A DNA stretch of 39,875 nt. It comes from Thioploca sp. GTDB taxonomy: Bacteria > Pseudomonadota > Gammaproteobacteria > Beggiatoales > Beggiatoaceae. This document shows, piece after piece, positions 18,256-27,556 of this stretch. A program made the translations under genes and the position numbers. Location: positions 1 through 39,875 of the forward strand of contig DAOUSR010000010.1 of assembly GCA_030627125.1 (NCBI GenBank), read 5' to 3'. Numbering within the stretch: position 1 is the stretch's first letter; each line of letters opens with the position of its first letter. A model generated the notes under the pieces. The model was not told the origin of the DNA and did not search any database. It saw only the letters and a list, made by a program, of their open reading frames with translations.

Positions 18256-21018
18256 ATGTTTAAAAACTTTAAAATTAACAGCAAATTAACCTTGATGGTA
18301 GCTTTACCACTGTTAGGGCTTATTTACTTCACAATAGATAATACTTTAAACAAGTTGGTAATAGTTGAACAGATGGATTCATTGCAGAAATTAGCAGAAC
18401 TTGCAATTAAATCAAGTGCTTTAATTCATGAGTTGCAGAAAGAAAGAGGTATATCGGCAGGTTTTATTGGCAGTTTAGGCCAGGAGTTTGTAACAGAACT
18501 TGAAGCTCAAAGGGTTAATACAAATACTTCTGTAGCTATGCTAAAAAATTTCATAGAAGAAGTATTGGTGTTAAACAATAAAGAAATTCAAGACACTTTA
18601 CAATTAAGTCTAAAAAAGTTAAAAAAAATTAGCACAAAAAGGTTTTTAATCAATAAATTAGAAATAAATGTAGAAGATGAATTACAGTATTATACCAGTA
18701 TTATCAATACCCTATTAACAAACATCAATTATTTATCAAAATTTATCACCGATGGCAAGCTCTCTCATAATGCTATGGCTTATGTAAATTTATTACAAGC
18801 TAAAGAAAAAGCTGGGATTGAAAGAGGAACTTTAAATAATGCTTTCAGTAAAGGTCATTTTGAGCCAATTATATATAAAAAATTTGTGCTATTAGTTGGA
18901 GCTCAGGATATTTATATCAAGAACTTTTTTTTCTTTGCTAATGATGAACAACAACAATTTTACCAAGAAGTAATGAGTCACGATTCTACTAATGAAATAG
19001 AACAAATCAGAGAAATGGCATTTAAAAGAGCTTCCAAGTCGCAAATTTTATCAGAATTACGAACCAATTTTCGGCCTAGAGGATTGATTCAACAAATAAA
19101 TAACTATGTATTATGGGACGAAAATAGTTATCTGGAAGAATTTTATCAGCAATATCAAGAAGCTTTTACTTTATTAGAAAATTATAAAAATTTACCTTAT
19201 GTTTCTAAAATTGAATTTGACAATATTAAAATCATTCAAAATATTTTTAATGAATACAAAAATTCCATAGTCGTTATAGCCGAATTAAAGAAACAATCCA
19301 ATATCTTAGAAGAAATAGAAGCAGTTGTTGATAATATAGATTACACTCCTGCTTCTAAGGCGTTTAATGATTTATTGAATGGTAACTATTTAGGCGTGGA
19401 ACCAATCCATTGGTGGAAAATTGCAACTGATAATATTAATCGCTTAAAAATTGTAGAAGATAAAATTGCCAATGATTTGAAACAGTCGTCTATTCTGTTA
19501 AGAAGACAAGCTCATTCTACCTTTGTGTTTTATTTATTATTAAGTGGCATAACTATTTTATTAACAATATTATTAAATATTTTATTTGCTCATAATATTG
19601 TAACACCACTGAAAGAACTGGTTAAAATCGCTAATCAAATCACTTTAGGTAATCGAGATGTTGAAATTACAATTGATTCTAAAGATGAAACTGGCCAGTT
19701 ATCTAATGCTATGTTGCAAATGGTTTATTCTATCAATTGCTCAGAAAGCATGTTGAAAGATACCAGTATAGCTTACTCTCGATTTGTACCGGATGAATTT
19801 TTAGAGTTATTAAGCAAAGAACATATTTTGGAAATCCAACTTGGCAATCATATAGAAATGGATATGACGATATTGTTTGCGGATATTCGTTCTTTCACCA
19901 CTCTATCTGAAAAAATGTCACCTCAAGATACTTTTAATTTAATTAATTCTTATCTGAAAAAAATGGCACCTATTATCCATGCACATAATGGTATTGTGGA
20001 TAAATATATTGGTGATGCAATCATGGCTTTATTTATGAACGCTGATGATGCAGTGCAAGCTTCCATTGCAATGTTAAAAAAATTAGATGATTGTAACAGT
20101 AGTTGTAATCCAATTCGTCAATATCAAAAAATTAAAGTTGGGATTGGGCTAAATACTGGTAAGCTTATGTTGGGAATTATTGGTGAAGCTAACCGTTTGC
20201 AATGTACTGTTATCAGCGATGCAGTAAATTTAGCATCTCGATTGGAAGGAGCAACCAAAATCTATAAATGCTCGTTAATCATTAGTCAGAATACTTATGA
20301 TAATTTAAATAACCATAATGATTATGCGATTCGTTTTTTGGATAATATTAGAGTCAAGGGTCGTTATGAACGTATTAATATATTTGAAGTTTTTGATTGT
20401 GAACCGTTGGAATCTCAGATTAATAAACGGCAATCATTAGCAACATTTGAGCAAGCTGTACATCTATATCAAGAGCATAAATTTGCTCAAGTGGGAGAAT
20501 TAATGAATAAATGTTTACATTTAAACCCATTTGATGCTGCTGCTGATATTTATTTGCAACGTTGTCGCCGTTTTTTAACAATTGATCATAGTGGTTATTG
20601 GGAGAAAATTGCGGAAAAAATTGATTGGACGAATGCTTTATCAGTCAATGATCCAATTATTGATAGTCAACATCGAGAAATATTTATTAGAATCAAAAAC
20701 TTGGTAATGTCGATAGGAAGTGGAGTTTCAGAAGAAGAAATATATGATATGCTTAGTTTTTTGGGTAGTTATGTCACTTCTCATTTTACTTTAGAAGAGA
20801 TGTATATGGAAATATATAATTATCCGCATTATGCTTTTCACAAAGAACAACATACTAAATTAATAAAGACTTATGAAAGATTTAAACGTCAGTATAAAGA
20901 AAATGGTGGTGATATATATTTAATTTTGCAAATTCAACAAAAGATTGTTGATTGGGTTATTGAGCATATTAATAAAGAAGATAAAGATTTGTGGGAGTTT
21001 TTGGTGGGTAAGCGTTGA
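18256..21018 (+). CDS. NIT-sensor/HAMP/class III nucleotidyl cyclase with C-terminal hemerythrin domain
   Basis: LQKERGISAGFIGS (NIT), TPLKELVKIANQITLGN (HAMP), TILFADIRSFTTLSE...VDKYIGDAIMALF...VISDAVNLASRLEG (cyclase), IDSQHRE/HFTLEEMYMEIYNYPHYAFHKEQH/EHINKEDKDL (hemerythrin ligands). Confidence 0.9.
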   Translation: MFKNFKINSKLTLMVALPLLGLIYFTIDNTLNKLVIVEQMDSLQKLAELAIKSSALIHELQKERGISAGFIGSLGQEFVTELEAQRVNTNTSVAMLKNFIEEVLVLNNKEIQDTLQLSLKKLKKISTKRFLINKLEINVEDELQYYTSIINTLLTNINYLSKFITDGKLSHNAMAYVNLLQAKEKAGIERGTLNNAFSKGHFEPIIYKKFVLLVGAQDIYIKNFFFFANDEQQQFYQEVMSHDSTNEIEQIREMAFKRASKSQILSELRTNFRPRGLIQQINNYVLWDENSYLEEFYQQYQEAFTLLENYKNLPYVSKIEFDNIKIIQNIFNEYKNSIVVIAELKKQSNILEEIEAVVDNIDYTPASKAFNDLLNGNYLGVEPIHWWKIATDNINRLKIVEDKIANDLKQSSILLRRQAHSTFVFYLLLSGITILLTILLNILFAHNIVTPLKELVKIANQITLGNRDVEITIDSKDETGQLSNAMLQMVYSINCSESMLKDTSIAYSRFVPDEFLELLSKEHILEIQLGNHIEMDMTILFADIRSFTTLSEKMSPQDTFNLINSYLKKMAPIIHAHNGIVDKYIGDAIMALFMNADDAVQASIAMLKKLDDCNSSCNPIRQYQKIKVGIGLNTGKLMLGIIGEANRLQCTVISDAVNLASRLEGATKIYKCSLIISQNTYDNLNNHNDYAIRFLDNIRVKGRYERINIFEVFDCEPLESQINKRQSLATFEQAVHLYQEHKFAQVGELMNKCLHLNPFDAAADIYLQRCRRFLTIDHSGYWEKIAEKIDWTNALSVNDPIIDSQHREIFIRIKNLVMSIGSGVSEEEIYDMLSFLGSYVTSHFTLEEMYMEIYNYPHYAFHKEQHTKLIKTYERFKRQYKENGGDIYLILQIQQKIVDWVIEHINKEDKDLWEFLVGKR

Positions 21019-21125: not shown

Positions 21126-22862
21126 ATGTCCAGAATACTAATCCAAAATTATCACAATGAAGTAGAAAAAATTATTCAATATGGTGGTTCTCGCAAAGAA
21201 ACTTCCATTCGGGTAGCGTTTCAGAATTTGTTAAATGCTTATTGTGAAAGCAAAAAATTTATCTTAATTCCAGAATTAGAATATCGTACCAAGCACAATA
21301 CTACGGTTTATCCGGATGGCACGGTGAAAGATGCGTTACGTTTACCTTGGGGTTATTGGGAAAGTAAAGACCAAGCTGATAATTTAGATAAGGAAATTGA
21401 ACGTAAATTTGCTAAAGGTTATCCCAATGACAATATTTTGTTTGAAGATTCAAAAACTGCTATTTTATTTCAAGGCAATAATGAAGTTCAACGGATTTCA
21501 ATTGCAGATGCCGAAAAATTGGATGCACTATTCACTAAATTTATCAATTATGAACGGCCGGAGGTGCGAGATTTTAGGCAGGCAATTGACCGATTTAGAA
21601 CCGATTTGCCCACAGTAGTTGAGGCTCTACGTTCTACCATAGCAAAACAAGCTAGCAATAAGTTTAGCAAGGCTTTCAATAAGTTATTTGAACTTTGTAA
21701 GGATTCGATTAATCCTAAAATTAATGAATTTGATATTAGAGAGATGATTATTCAGCATATTTTGACTGAAGATATTTTCTTGACCGTATTTAATGAGAGT
21801 CAGTTCCATCGGGAAAATGTGATCGCTAAGGAATTGGTAGCGGTGGTAAATACCTTTTTTACTGGAAAGGTGCGGCGAGATACTTTGCAATCAATTGAAA
21901 GTTATTATGCGGTAATTCGGCGGGAAGCGGCTAATATTTCTAATCATCATGAGAAGCAAAAGTTTTTGAAGGTGATTTATGAGAATTTTTATAAAACTTA
22001 TAATCCAAAAGCGGCGGATAGATTAGGCATTGTTTATACTCCGAATGAGATTGTGCAGTTTATGTTGAAAAGCACGGATTATTTATTGGATAAGCATTTT
22101 GACCGTTTATTGGCGGATGATAAGGTGGAAATTCTTGATCCGGCAACTGGTACTGGAACGTTTATTACTGAATTAATTGAATATTTACCTAAAGATAGAT
22201 TGCGAGCTAAGTATAAAAATGAGATTCATTGTAATGAGGTGGCTATCTTGCCTTATTATATTGCGAATTTGAATATTGAGTATACTTATCAGCAGAAGAT
22301 GAAGAAGTATGAGGAATTTAGTAATATTTGTTTTGTGGATACGTTGGATAATGTGGGTTTTGAGTATGGGTATGAGAATCAGCAAAAGGGGTTTATTTTT
22401 GGATTAGGAGAGGAAAATGCGAAACGAATTAAGGAGCAGAATAAGCGGAAGATTTCGGTAATTATTGGCAATCCGCCTTATAATGCAAATCAGCAAAATG
22501 AAAATGATAATAATAAGAATCGTGAGTATAAAGAAATAGATGAAGCGATTAAGCGGACTTATATTGAAAGCAGTACAGCACAGAAAACTAAGATGTATGA
22601 TATGTATACCCGTTTTTTGCGTTGGGCGAGTAATCGATTGGTAGGTGATGGGATTATTGCGTTTATTGTGAATCGGAGTTTTATTGAGAGCCGGCAATCG
22701 GATGGTTTTCGTAAAGTAATTGCGGAGGAATTTGATTTTATTTATCTGGTTGATACGCAAAGTGATGTTCGTAAGAATCCTAAAATTTCTGGGACTAAAC
22801 ATAATGTGTTTGGGATTCAGACAGGGGTGGCAGTTATGTTTTTGGTTCGAGTGAGTGAATGA
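21126..22862 (+). CDS. Type ISP-like restriction-modification protein, N-terminal part (nuclease-like domain + N6-adenine methyltransferase core)
   Basis: YPDGTV...GYWESKD (PD-ExK-like), DPATGTGTFITELIEYL (motif I), VIIGNPPYNANQ (motif IV); ends at KHNVFGIQTGVAVMFLVRVSE, where full-length homologues would be expected to continue. Confidence 0.85.
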   Translation: MSRILIQNYHNEVEKIIQYGGSRKETSIRVAFQNLLNAYCESKKFILIPELEYRTKHNTTVYPDGTVKDALRLPWGYWESKDQADNLDKEIERKFAKGYPNDNILFEDSKTAILFQGNNEVQRISIADAEKLDALFTKFINYERPEVRDFRQAIDRFRTDLPTVVEALRSTIAKQASNKFSKAFNKLFELCKDSINPKINEFDIREMIIQHILTEDIFLTVFNESQFHRENVIAKELVAVVNTFFTGKVRRDTLQSIESYYAVIRREAANISNHHEKQKFLKVIYENFYKTYNPKAADRLGIVYTPNEIVQFMLKSTDYLLDKHFDRLLADDKVEILDPATGTGTFITELIEYLPKDRLRAKYKNEIHCNEVAILPYYIANLNIEYTYQQKMKKYEEFSNICFVDTLDNVGFEYGYENQQKGFIFGLGEENAKRIKEQNKRKISVIIGNPPYNANQQNENDNNKNREYKEIDEAIKRTYIESSTAQKTKMYDMYTRFLRWASNRLVGDGIIAFIVNRSFIESRQSDGFRKVIAEEFDFIYLVDTQSDVRKNPKISGTKHNVFGIQTGVAVMFLVRVSE

Positions 22863-23180
22863 GAATGCCAACTAATCGTTCCCCTATCTATCCGGGTGAA
22901 ATTTTATTAGAAAAGTTTATGCGTCCTTATAATTTAACTATATTGGAATTATCTGAAAAAATAGGCATTTCCTATGAAAAAATTGAGGCAATTATCAATA
23001 GTAGATACGGCTCTTGCTTTGTATTTATCAGAATTATTTGGCACTTCACCTGAATTATGGCTTAATCGTCAGATGCAATGGGAGATTTGGCATTGTTTGC
23101 ATGGAACAGAAGTTAAAAAATTGGAAATGATTCAGCCGATTGTAGCTTCTTCAAACTTTAAACCAGAATTTGTGGGATAA
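22859..23180 (+). pseudogene. HigA-type XRE antitoxin, frameshifted
   Basis: MRMPTNRSPIYPGEILLEKFMRPYNLTILELSEKIGISYEKIEAIINS in one frame, DTALALYLSELFGTSPELWLNRQMQWEIWHCLHGTEVKKLEMIQPI in another. Confidence 0.75.
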
Positions 23181-23207
23181 TTTTTTAAATTCATAGGATA
23201 TTTATTT

Positions 23208-23957
23208 ATGTTTTACAAATATGTAAGTGAAGAATGGATAGATAATATATTAAGAGATCGTTTAATAAGATTTTCACAATTTAAGGCATTAAACGATCCT
23301 TTTGAAAGTCTTATTTTGTTTGATCCAGAGGATACAAAAAGAGTAGCAAAGGATTTTTTTAAAAAAGAAGGGCAAAATGTAATAGGATTTTGCGATGAAA
23401 TGTCCGATCCAAATTTTATAGGAACACGCTTCATGAATAATAATTTTAATGATAATTTTGGAATACTGTCTCTGTCTAAAAATAAAAATAATTTATTGAT
23501 GTGGTCTCATTATACTAATAATTATAAAGGTTTTGTTATTGGTTTTAATTCAGAACATAATTTTTTTTCTGGAAAATATCTGCATGATGACGGTCAACCG
23601 TATCTTTTACGAAATGTGTTATATACAGACAAAAGAAGAATTGTGAAACTTAATGCGTATGATATAATGAATTTTTTTTGTGAAAAACCAATAGAATGGG
23701 CTTATGAAAAAGAAGTTAGAATTTTTAAAATATTGCCTAAAACCAACAAATATTGTGAAATAGATCAATTTGGTCAAAAAATATGTTTGTATAAATTTCC
23801 TAAAGATTTAATACAAGAAGTTATTATCGGTCACAATATAGAACCAGAATTGAGAAAAAAAGTAATTCAATATTGTTTTGAGCTGAACAATGAAATAAAA
23901 GTTTATGAAACAACACTATCGAAAACTAAGTATGAAATAGAATTTAACAAATTGTGA
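23208..23957 (+). CDS. DUF2971 domain protein
   Basis: MFYKYVSEEWIDNILRDRLIRFSQFKALNDPFE...SLSKNKNNLLMWSHYTNNYKGFVIGFN. Confidence 0.85.
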   Translation: MFYKYVSEEWIDNILRDRLIRFSQFKALNDPFESLILFDPEDTKRVAKDFFKKEGQNVIGFCDEMSDPNFIGTRFMNNNFNDNFGILSLSKNKNNLLMWSHYTNNYKGFVIGFNSEHNFFSGKYLHDDGQPYLLRNVLYTDKRRIVKLNAYDIMNFFCEKPIEWAYEKEVRIFKILPKTNKYCEIDQFGQKICLYKFPKDLIQEVIIGHNIEPELRKKVIQYCFELNNEIKVYETTLSKTKYEIEFNKL

Positions 23958-23967
23958 GAAACCTAAC

Positions 23968-24204
23968 ATGCAAACAATAGAACAAATATACCAACAACAT
24001 ATCAAGTCAATTACCATTGATGAGCAGTTGCGTCTTATTGGTTTAATTACGCAAACATTAACAAAACAAAGTGATGACAAGCCATCTTTGGAAAAATCAA
24101 GTAATGCTGATTGGCGTGATAGTATGTCAGAAAAGGTAAAAATATTAGTTTCTGAAGAAGAATTAATCCAACCAATGACTGATATTTGGGAGGATTACAT
24201 TTGA
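23968..24204 (+). CDS. Small antitoxin-like protein preceding a PIN-domain stub
   Basis: 78-aa ORF; stop overlaps the next reading frame (TTGA), typical of antitoxin-PIN toxin pairs. Confidence 0.5.
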   Translation: MQTIEQIYQQHIKSITIDEQLRLIGLITQTLTKQSDDKPSLEKSSNADWRDSMSEKVKILVSEEELIQPMTDIWEDYI

Positions 24205-24275
24205 ACTCTAATTTTTTATTAGATACTCATGCCTTAGTATTTTGGATAAATCAAGAAAATATATCTCAATTATGA
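24201..24275 (+). pseudogene. Truncated PIN-domain (VapC-like) toxin N-terminus
   Basis: LNSNFLLDTHALVFWINQENISQL then TGA; LLDTHALVFW is the PIN N-terminal motif. Confidence 0.7.
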
Positions 24276-25534
24276 AAAAATCAGCTAAAATCTACTATTT
24301 CACTTTAACCGATGAGATGCCTCGTGAGGATAAATTAAGTTGGTTTTCTCACACAAAATTTAAGGACATTCCTTTTGATAGAATTGAGCCGGATAAGAAT
24401 CATAATTGGATTAATATAACTGATAATGATTTTGATGATTTGTTGCCTTTAGCTAATAAAGAAACTAAATTGGCTAAGTCGCAGAAAGAGGAACAGGCGG
24501 TTTTTAAGTTGTTTTCTAATGGAGTTGCTACTAACAGAGATGAATGGGTTTACGATTTTAGCAAACTGAATTTAAAAGAAAAAATTAAATTTTTTATAGA
24601 AAAATATAGTCGATGTTCTAATGATAATTTTGATTTATCTATTAAATGGAGTAGAGATTTAAAAAAAGAATTAAATAGTGGTAAAAAAGTAACTTTTACT
24701 GATAAAAAGATAATTAATAGTTTTTACCGCCCTTTTATAAAGAAATATCAATATGGTGAACGTATTTTAAATGATGTATTGACTCAGAATCATTATGACA
24801 TGTTTGGAAATTATTTAATCAATAATAACAAAATAATCGCAATTGATATGTCAAAAAAACTATTTAATATTTTATCTATAAATCATTTAGTTGATTTACA
24901 TTTCAACGGTGATTCCCAATGCCTCCCACTTTACCACTATGACTCCGAAGGCAACCGCCACGACAACATAACCGACTGGGGTCTAACCCAATTTCAAACC
25001 CACTACCAAGACGACACCATAACCAAAGAAAACATCTTCCACTATACTTATGCTGTACTCCACAACCCAGCTTATCGGCAAAAATACGAACTCAATCTAA
25101 AGCGAGAATTTCCTCGTCTCCCGTTCTATACAGACTTTCCCCAATGGATAAACTGGGGCCAACAACTCATGGATTTACACCTAAATTATGAGCAAGCTAA
25201 GAAATACAAATTAAAACAAATAGATATAGAAACTATCAAGCTAAATAAACCCAAATTAAAAGCCGATAAAGAAGCTGGTAAAATCTACCTTGACCAAATT
25301 ACCACCTTACAAGGAATCCCTTCAATAGCATGGGATTACAAACTAGGCAACCGCAGTGCATTAGAATGGATACTTGACCAATACAAAGAAAAAACACCCC
25401 GTGATCCAACTATCGCCGCAAAATTTAATACCTACCGATTCGCCGACTATAAACTTCAAGTTATTGAATTATTACAACGAGTTTGTACCGTCAGTGTGGA
25501 AACTATGAAAATTATTGGAGAGATGTCGGAATAA
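24272..25534 (+). CDS. Type ISP-like restriction-modification protein, C-terminal part (target-recognition region)
   Basis: KIYYFTLTDEMPREDKLSWF...NWINITDNDFDDLLPL...LPLYHYDSEG...ITDWGLTQFQTHY, QIDIETIKLNKPK...ALEWILDQYKEKTPRDPTIAAKFNTYRFADYKLQVIELLQRVCTVSVETMKII; typical ISP C-terminal sequence. ATG at 24272; ORF track opens at 24242 (TTG). Confidence 0.85.
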   Translation: MKKSAKIYYFTLTDEMPREDKLSWFSHTKFKDIPFDRIEPDKNHNWINITDNDFDDLLPLANKETKLAKSQKEEQAVFKLFSNGVATNRDEWVYDFSKLNLKEKIKFFIEKYSRCSNDNFDLSIKWSRDLKKELNSGKKVTFTDKKIINSFYRPFIKKYQYGERILNDVLTQNHYDMFGNYLINNNKIIAIDMSKKLFNILSINHLVDLHFNGDSQCLPLYHYDSEGNRHDNITDWGLTQFQTHYQDDTITKENIFHYTYAVLHNPAYRQKYELNLKREFPRLPFYTDFPQWINWGQQLMDLHLNYEQAKKYKLKQIDIETIKLNKPKLKADKEAGKIYLDQITTLQGIPSIAWDYKLGNRSALEWILDQYKEKTPRDPTIAAKFNTYRFADYKLQVIELLQRVCTVSVETMKIIGEMSE

Positions 25535-26083: not shown

Positions 26084-27556
26084 ATGTACATTGTTATGAT
26101 AGCATCTGAATGTGCGCCAGTATCTAAGGTTGGTGGTCTTGCTGATGTCGTTTATGGTCTTAGCAGAGAGCTAGAAGTTAGAGGCAATCAAGTAGAAATT
26201 ATTCTACCCAAATATGCTTGCATGCGTTACGATCATATCTGGGAACTACAGGTTGTTTACCATGATTTATGGGTTCCATGGGGAACAGGAGCAATTAATT
26301 GTACCGTATGGTTTGGCATGGTGGATGGACGCAATTGTTTTTTTATTGAGCCACATTCACCCGATAATTTTTTTAATCGAGAGCAATATTACGGTTTTCC
26401 AGATGATACTATGCGATTTACTTTTTTTAGTAAGGCAACGCTGGAATTTATGTTGCAAACTAATAGGCATCCAGACGTTATTCATTGTCATGATTGGCAA
26501 ACTGGATTGATACCAGTATTATTATTTGAAATCTATCAACAACAAGGTATGTATCATTCCAGAATTTGTTATAGTATTCATAATTTTAGATATCAAGGTG
26601 TTACTGGAACCGACATTCTTTCAGTTACTAAGTTAGATCGTCTAGAATATTATCATCATAAGGATCGTTTACAAGATAATATGCATTCTGGTGCTTTGAA
26701 CTTTATGAAAGCTGGAATCGTTTATTCTAACTTTGTTACTACAGTATCACCACGCCATGCTTGGGAAGCCAGTTATACTGTTCAAGGTTACGGAATGAAC
26801 GATACTTTGCATATCCATAAAAATAAATTTAGTGGAATTCTTAATGGTTTAGATTACAAAGTTTGGAATCCAGAAATAGACCCTTTAATTCCTCATAATT
26901 ATAATATAGCTGATTTAAAAGGTAAATATGCTTGCAAAGAAGCATTGTGTGATAAATTATTATTGCAGAAACAATATAAACCGATCATAGCTTATGTAGG
27001 CCGATTGGATGTACAAAAAGGAGTACACTTAATACGGCATGGTATGGAATACGCTTTACAAAACGATGCTCAATTTATAGTCTTGGGTTCCAGCCCAGAA
27101 GAAAGTATTAATAATGATTTTTTACAGTTAAAGCAAGAACTTAATGATAATGAAAATTGTCATTTAGAAATTGGTTTTAACGAAGAATTAGCTCACCTGA
27201 TTTATGCCGGTTCTGATATGATCATTATGCCAAGTATGTATGAACCCTGTGGATTGGCTCAGATGATTGCTTTGCGATATGGAACTGTACCGATTGTGCG
27301 GTCAGTCGGGGGACTTGCTGATACGATTTTTGACCGAGATTATTCAGATAAAGCAATTACTGCTCGCAATGGCTATGTCTTTCATGAAGCTGATTACGTT
27401 GGTCTTGAATCGGCAATGCAACGAGCTATTGGTTTGTGGCATAATTATCCAGAGCAGTTCCATAAACTCATAATCCAAGGTATGCAATACAATTTTTCAT
27501 GGCATCGTTCTGGCCAAAATTACTTGGATATTTATGAATTAATTCGGAAGAAGTGA
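26084..27556 (+). CDS. glgA: Glycogen synthase
   Basis: SECAPVSKVGGLADVVYGLSREL, HCHDWQTGLIPVL, YVGRLDVQKGVHLI, MPSMYEPCGLAQMIALRYGTVPIVRSVGGLADTI. Confidence 0.95.
   Translation: MYIVMIASECAPVSKVGGLADVVYGLSRELEVRGNQVEIILPKYACMRYDHIWELQVVYHDLWVPWGTGAINCTVWFGMVDGRNCFFIEPHSPDNFFNREQYYGFPDDTMRFTFFSKATLEFMLQTNRHPDVIHCHDWQTGLIPVLLFEIYQQQGMYHSRICYSIHNFRYQGVTGTDILSVTKLDRLEYYHHKDRLQDNMHSGALNFMKAGIVYSNFVTTVSPRHAWEASYTVQGYGMNDTLHIHKNKFSGILNGLDYKVWNPEIDPLIPHNYNIADLKGKYACKEALCDKLLLQKQYKPIIAYVGRLDVQKGVHLIRHGMEYALQNDAQFIVLGSSPEESINNDFLQLKQELNDNENCHLEIGFNEELAHLIYAGSDMIIMPSMYEPCGLAQMIALRYGTVPIVRSVGGLADTIFDRDYSDKAITARNGYVFHEADYVGLESAMQRAIGLWHNYPEQFHKLIIQGMQYNFSWHRSGQNYLDIYELIRKK

Follow-up and report, generated by a model that had tools for sequence, protein, structure and literature searches.

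The restriction-modification (R-M) locus in the 39,875-nucleotide stretch of Thioploca sp. DNA analysed here (the window) probably encodes a natural two-subunit enzyme, in which a DrdV-like type IIG protein is divided into an RM and a specificity (S) subunit within a translationally coupled operon, and in which the site of the cut accommodates exchangeable type II toxin-antitoxin (TA) modules. We put the probability of this reading at about 0.66. The split itself, which recurs at one structural position in several phyla, is a recurrent, selected architecture. The original prediction, of a natural split in a coupled operon and not simple decay, is strongly supported by the single position of the cut, the existence of wholly split clades, purifying selection and intact motifs; what needed amending were the family name given to the enzyme and the reading of the intervening block as no more than accessory genes.

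The window locus

The N-part and the C-part of the enzyme are separate ORFs 1.4 kb apart, not a single polypeptide (Table 1). Their positions and the three stop/start overlaps were exactly as predicted, and neither half contains internal stops. The nuclease residues D64 and E79-x-K81 are present in the N-part, in columns that are conserved or invariant in relatives, together with methylase motifs I (DPATGTGTF, 338-346) and IV (NPPY, 449-452), likewise conserved among relatives. Pfam matched ISP_coupler and N6_Mtase/Eco57I in this half, for which a nuclease- and methyltransferase-like character had been proposed. The C-part, thought to be target-recognition-like, matched Type_ISP_C (PF18135) over the whole 342-position model (E 7e-88). 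Both ORFs aligned as consecutive pieces to the PADLOC model REase_MTase_IIG (1024 positions), the N-part to positions 6-586 and the C-part to 598-1010. At the level of sequence, this confirmed the two ORFs as one DrdV-like enzyme cut in two, with both halves intact.

No internal terminators were found on the + strand of the window locus, and promoter-like sites were no commoner there than expected by chance. A single transcript would carry the N, TA and C genes, and termination-reinitiation at the ATGA overlaps would couple their translation. Ordinary chromosomal genes flank the R-M locus on both sides; inspection of the translations by eye indicated a cyclase-like protein with a hemerythrin-like C-terminal part upstream (18256-21018) and a glycogen synthase-like protein downstream (26084-27556).

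Table 1. Features of the split R-M locus, in positions of the window.
Feature	Position	Strand	Description
N-part ORF	21126..22862	+	578 aa; PD-(D/E)XK nuclease, coupler and N6-adenine methylase core; C-terminal end GVAVMFLVRVSE followed by the stop
ATGA overlap, N-part stop / HigA start	22859..22862	+	read from the sequence
HigA-family antitoxin relic	22859..23180	+	frameshifted, its 5' half being read in the frame of 22859 and its 3' half in that of 22974
DUF2971 protein	23208..23957	+	249 aa, full length; Pfam PF11185, E 2e-7
Small antitoxin-like ORF	23968..24204	+	78 aa; homologues in same-genus genomes
TTGA overlap, antitoxin-like stop / PIN frame	24201..24204	+	read from the sequence
PIN (VapC-like) toxin relic	24201..24275	+	first ~23 residues only, rest deleted
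ATGA overlap, PIN-stub TGA / C-part ATG	24272..24275	+	read from the sequence
C-part ORF	24272..25534	+	420 aa; N-terminal start MKKSAKIYYFTLTDEM; last methylase beta-strand and target-recognition / ISP C-terminal specificity domain

Type of enzyme

Genes of this kind are labelled 'type ISP restriction/modification enzyme' by NCBI, and type ISP was also the family originally proposed. The proposal holds insofar as a coupler, an N6 methylase and an ISP C-terminal specificity domain are all present across the two halves (Pfam), homologous to those of the Type ISP enzymes LlaGI and LlaBIII. However, when aligned to a profile built from 42 fused relatives, LlaGI and LlaBIII begin to match only at residue ~152, their helicase-bearing N-terminal part having no counterpart, and no helicase family was among the Pfam matches of the window's enzyme. 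Type ISP enzymes have an SF2 helicase, between nuclease and coupler, and ATP-driven translocation; as this helicase is absent, true Type ISP identity was ruled out. The two separate ORFs also depart from the single polypeptide of Type ISP enzymes. In contrast, the profile matched 7LO5/7LVV (1029 aa), which we take to be structures of DrdV, from end to end (7LO5 aligned over 1-1011). The homology extends through nuclease, coupler, methylase and target-recognition domain (TRD) over ~1000 aa in total, a feature of DrdV-like type IIG enzymes. DrdV likewise has an N-terminal nuclease, a methylase, a C-terminal TRD and no helicase, and its domain order and mechanism have been described (PMC10201449). 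Because LlaGI and LlaBIII match only in part and no helicase is found, the inexact label 'Type ISP' is better replaced by helicase-less, DrdV-like type IIG, which is what the window's enzyme is by its sequence. DrdV is one chain, whereas the window's enzyme consists of two, cut in a methylase beta-hairpin and with genes between them.

Recurrence and structural position of the cut

From the best 80 genome loci, 40 relatives, and 390 cyanobacterial, 369 gammaproteobacterial and 396 Bacteroidota genomes, we obtained 146 unique near-full-length N-part homologues, 140 of them with a visible stop. In 39 of the 140, the stop falls 1-21 codons after the same residue; none falls at 22-100 codons, eight lie elsewhere in the C-part and 93 at the natural end. 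The same cut position thus occurs in at least 38 loci besides the window, in several phyla and usually with another TA pair in the gap, which speaks against chance and bears out the suggestion that the split architecture should be sought in other genomes; relatives are far from all being uninterrupted. The window's own genome has a second such split (L188), intact and with VapB and PIN genes in its gap. Some split loci sit in multi-megabase contigs and, with the same cut in many genomes, an assembly artefact was ruled out.

Downstream of 35 of the 39 split N-parts, at a distance of 15-2639 bp, lies a C-part in the same orientation. Among these downstream ORFs, 29 are full length (407 aa or more), two run off the contig and four are broken; for the other four split N-parts, the sequence examined contains no C-part. 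Some split copies therefore do decay.

The AF2 model of L006, a fused homologue, is of moderate quality (mean pLDDT 81, pTM 0.62) and places the cut at a 6-residue turn (582-587) between strands 573-581 and 588-593. The cut is thus predicted to fall in the turn of a beta-hairpin with which the methylase fold ends, a location that would leave the last strand of the fold to be supplied by the C-part. The RM subunit would then comprise nuclease, coupler and methylase core, and the specificity subunit the last methylase strand and the TRD. We infer that the subunits most likely join again through strand pairing across the severed hairpin, giving an active enzyme.

TA modules between the enzyme halves

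At least 55 of the 76 gap ORFs matched type II TA families, namely DUF2281 (14), PIN (12), DUF433 (6), DUF4258 (5), MqsA (5), DUF5615 (3), ParE (3), HicA (2) and, once each, RhuM-Fic, UPF0175, VapB, HicB and ParD. As a control, 15 TA-family matches were counted among 150 ORFs in the 1.5-kb flanks of the same loci. The gaps are enriched over the flanks (Fisher p 1.5e-21), a value to be read with the related loci not being independent and the flank count limited to 25 listed families, single-match families beyond the list being left out. Adjacent intact toxin and antitoxin genes occur in gaps of relatives, as DUF2281+PIN, DUF433+DUF5615, VapB+PIN, HicA/HicB and other pairs. Other gaps contain a Bro-N/DinD-like gene (L077), a DUF3800 gene (L071) or an IS (L185), and one (L083) has IrrE-like plus PIN-like genes on the opposite strand. 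Three split loci (L041, L052 and L168) have little or nothing in the gap.

ATGA-type overlaps of -4/-1 occur at 13 of 31 left junctions and at 16 of 30 right junctions. With such overlaps common at both junctions, translation of the N, TA and C genes is probably coupled, and a TA module between the halves would be kept in step with the R-M subunits. Such a module most likely links the keeping of the R-M operon to neutralisation of the toxin (addiction), and it may also serve as a second barrier against phages. PrrC in EcoprrI and the RhuM/Fic/HEPN toxins of type I operons (PMC3710099) offer a parallel, on which the module could act upon loss or inhibition of the R-M system.

Alternatively, the TA genes could be selfish passengers that settle in the hairpin turn as the sole insertion-tolerant place, next to an enzyme that works in two pieces without any functional link to them. 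This alternative shares the working split enzyme with our preferred reading and differs from it only on the role of the TA genes. In-frame insertions in the same turn of fused homologues (L008, L013, L076 and L081), the cassette-less split loci and the rapid turnover of TA families speak for it; against it stand the strong bias toward TA modules over other cargo and the frequent -4/-1 overlaps with both enzyme halves. We consider it a serious contender, at somewhat below even odds.

Several gaps may carry traces of past exchange. Those of L041 and L168, which lack TA genes, contain palindromic GC-rich (REP-like) repeats, possibly scars of cassette loss. In L175 (G291:C22), a second, 68-aa copy of the N-part tail lies between two TA modules, suggesting tandem acquisition via recombination at the split junction. 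In L050, L075, L173 and L170, a DUF4258+MqsA-like pair is followed by an orphan DUF2281-type antitoxin without PIN toxin, a pattern suggestive of layered replacement of TA modules.

The cassette of the window

The block in the window had been described as a HigA remnant, a DUF2971 gene, an antitoxin-like ORF and a PIN stub, and each of the four was recognised. The HigA relic matches TIGR02607 positions 2-44 in one frame and 47-78 in another; no HigB toxin ORF was found beside it. The DUF2971 ORF also matches, over its full length, the PADLOC candidate defence family PDC-S31 (E 8e-33) and may have a defence role of its own. No Pfam family matched the small antitoxin-like ORF, whose homologues in two same-genus genomes are 82% and 69% identical; one of them is followed by a PIN toxin frame, itself frameshifted. 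The window's PIN stub is nearly letter for letter identical to the first residues of this same-genus toxin (LLDTHALVFWINQENISQ), and its remainder has been deleted, yet the stop/start overlap with the C-part is preserved.

An adjacent intact toxin and antitoxin are therefore absent from the window, HigA being frameshifted without HigB and PIN reduced to a stub. The window's own TA cassette is decayed, with the antitoxin and DUF2971 remaining, and no TA function can operate there now because its TA genes are dead. The description of the block as accessory genes is incomplete, since nearly all relatives have a type II TA module there, drawn from many families, and the window's own has decayed. 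In this genome the resident TA modules have been reduced to relics plus DUF2971 while the enzyme halves stayed intact. A homologue of the window's antitoxin also lies near a short C-part-like fragment in L202 (G004:C146), apparently the ruin of a similar locus.

Evolution and selection

The N-part tree requires at least 15 changes of split state and the C-tail tree 18, and a single ancient split with vertical inheritance was rejected (AU test of a single split clade, p-AU 4e-74). The split state persists, as two cyanobacterial clades of 14 and 10 rows in the N-part tree are wholly split. For N-parts, dN/dS is about 0.01-0.1 in split-split pairs and equally low in fused ones, so that the relaxed selection expected of a recent inactivation is not seen. 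Comparison of the window with a fused relative (L014) gave about 0.12 for the N-part and 0.2 for the C-part, like fused-fused pairs, although dS was near saturation and these values are rough. Recurrent changes of state, together with the low dN/dS of split pairs, make decay of the halves unlikely.

These data bear on the possibility that TA genes or mobile DNA simply hit a fused R-M gene, leaving its halves as decaying, non-functional relics. The decayed cassette of the window, the IS in L185 and the broken C-parts would all be in keeping with such insertional inactivation; against it stand a cut position shared by 39 loci, two old clades that are wholly split, the purifying selection on the N-part, intact catalytic residues alongside the full-length C ORFs, and overlaps preserved at both junctions. 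We consequently regard it as improbable. That the halves are uncoupled, with an N-part that acts as nuclease/methylase by itself and a C-part that is a store of specificity, either unused or exchangeable, would suit the far greater divergence of C-parts than of N-parts in close pairs (L179/L180, N-part 99% vs C-part 78% identity), but is very improbable given the same contrast in fused pairs (L017/L112, 93% vs 75%), an N-part without the last methylase strand and any TRD, and a C-part almost always directly downstream. A role of the split as a TRD-exchange device is also unsupported, the contrast between N- and C-parts being equal in fused pairs.

Both halves of the window's enzyme group with Thiotrichaceae in the N-part and C-tail trees. 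Residues ~541-615, around the cut, are closer to split loci of other phyla than to the window's own family; most of the remaining enzyme is closest to its own family, except for part of the TRD region (~660-735). This suggests that the split junction and the cassette may have been imported by recombination. In addition, a junction type was linked with the split state over 15 independent pairs (about 8 with vs 0.5 against; median p 0.016, range 0.004-0.07). More tentatively, the junction could be a mobile unit, made up of the tail of the N-part, the TA cassette and the beginning of the C-part (in some cases with the TRD), that is transferred between phyla via homologous recombination in the conserved flanks, turning fused enzymes into split ones, with the addiction module holding the new form; we hold this to be possible but rather unlikely.

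Relation to known systems

Single-chain type IIG enzymes are usually seen as the final, fused form of type I-like systems. In the loci described here the course is reversed: time and again, and always at one structural position, a type IIG enzyme becomes an RM + S pair. Natural RM + S pairs are known among type IIB enzymes, where BcgI and BsaXI combine a fused RM subunit with a separate specificity subunit, as proposed here (PMC11997821); however, the S subunit of BsaXI contains two TRDs and its target is bipartite, whereas the window's C-part has one TRD and the last methylase strand. Engineering has proceeded in the opposite direction, as EcoKI M and S can be fused with activity kept (PMC3510504; PMC6158711).

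The seam of the split enzyme also becomes a docking place for TA modules. Toxins embedded in R-M operons as a second-line defence occur in the EcoprrI hsd operon, with PrrC, and in type I operons with RhuM/Fic/HEPN (PMC3710099), but type I genes are separate by origin, while the gene cut in the present loci is a single-chain one and mostly carries two-gene type II TA modules. Between hsdM and hsdS of the same genomes, a search of ~1.5 kb flanks for homologues of the gap ORFs found gap TA families in one clear case (L221) among 30 hsdS loci. The TA systems listed for Synechocystis include DUF2281-PIN, DUF433-PIN and DUF4258-HicB, and the cyanobacterial type II systems include families also present in the gaps (DUF2281-PIN and DUF433-PIN); there they are free-standing or in defence islands, whereas those of the gaps lie inside a split R-M gene (PMC4963859). 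A full-text literature search, whose coverage excluded most subscription papers, found no published split IIG gene with TA genes inside. Since type IIG enzymes and R-M operons with an embedded toxin are already known, the window locus is a variant of both.

These loci are a set of naturally split methylases, of use in protein engineering as well, and they make it possible to test directly whether an R-M system is stabilised, or backed up, by the TA genes within it. Gene callers and R-M surveys may miscount split enzymes as broken genes or orphan methylases. In a plasmid collection we found five homologues, and the two inspected, from Geminocystis and Rhizobium phaseoli, are annotated as single long genes.
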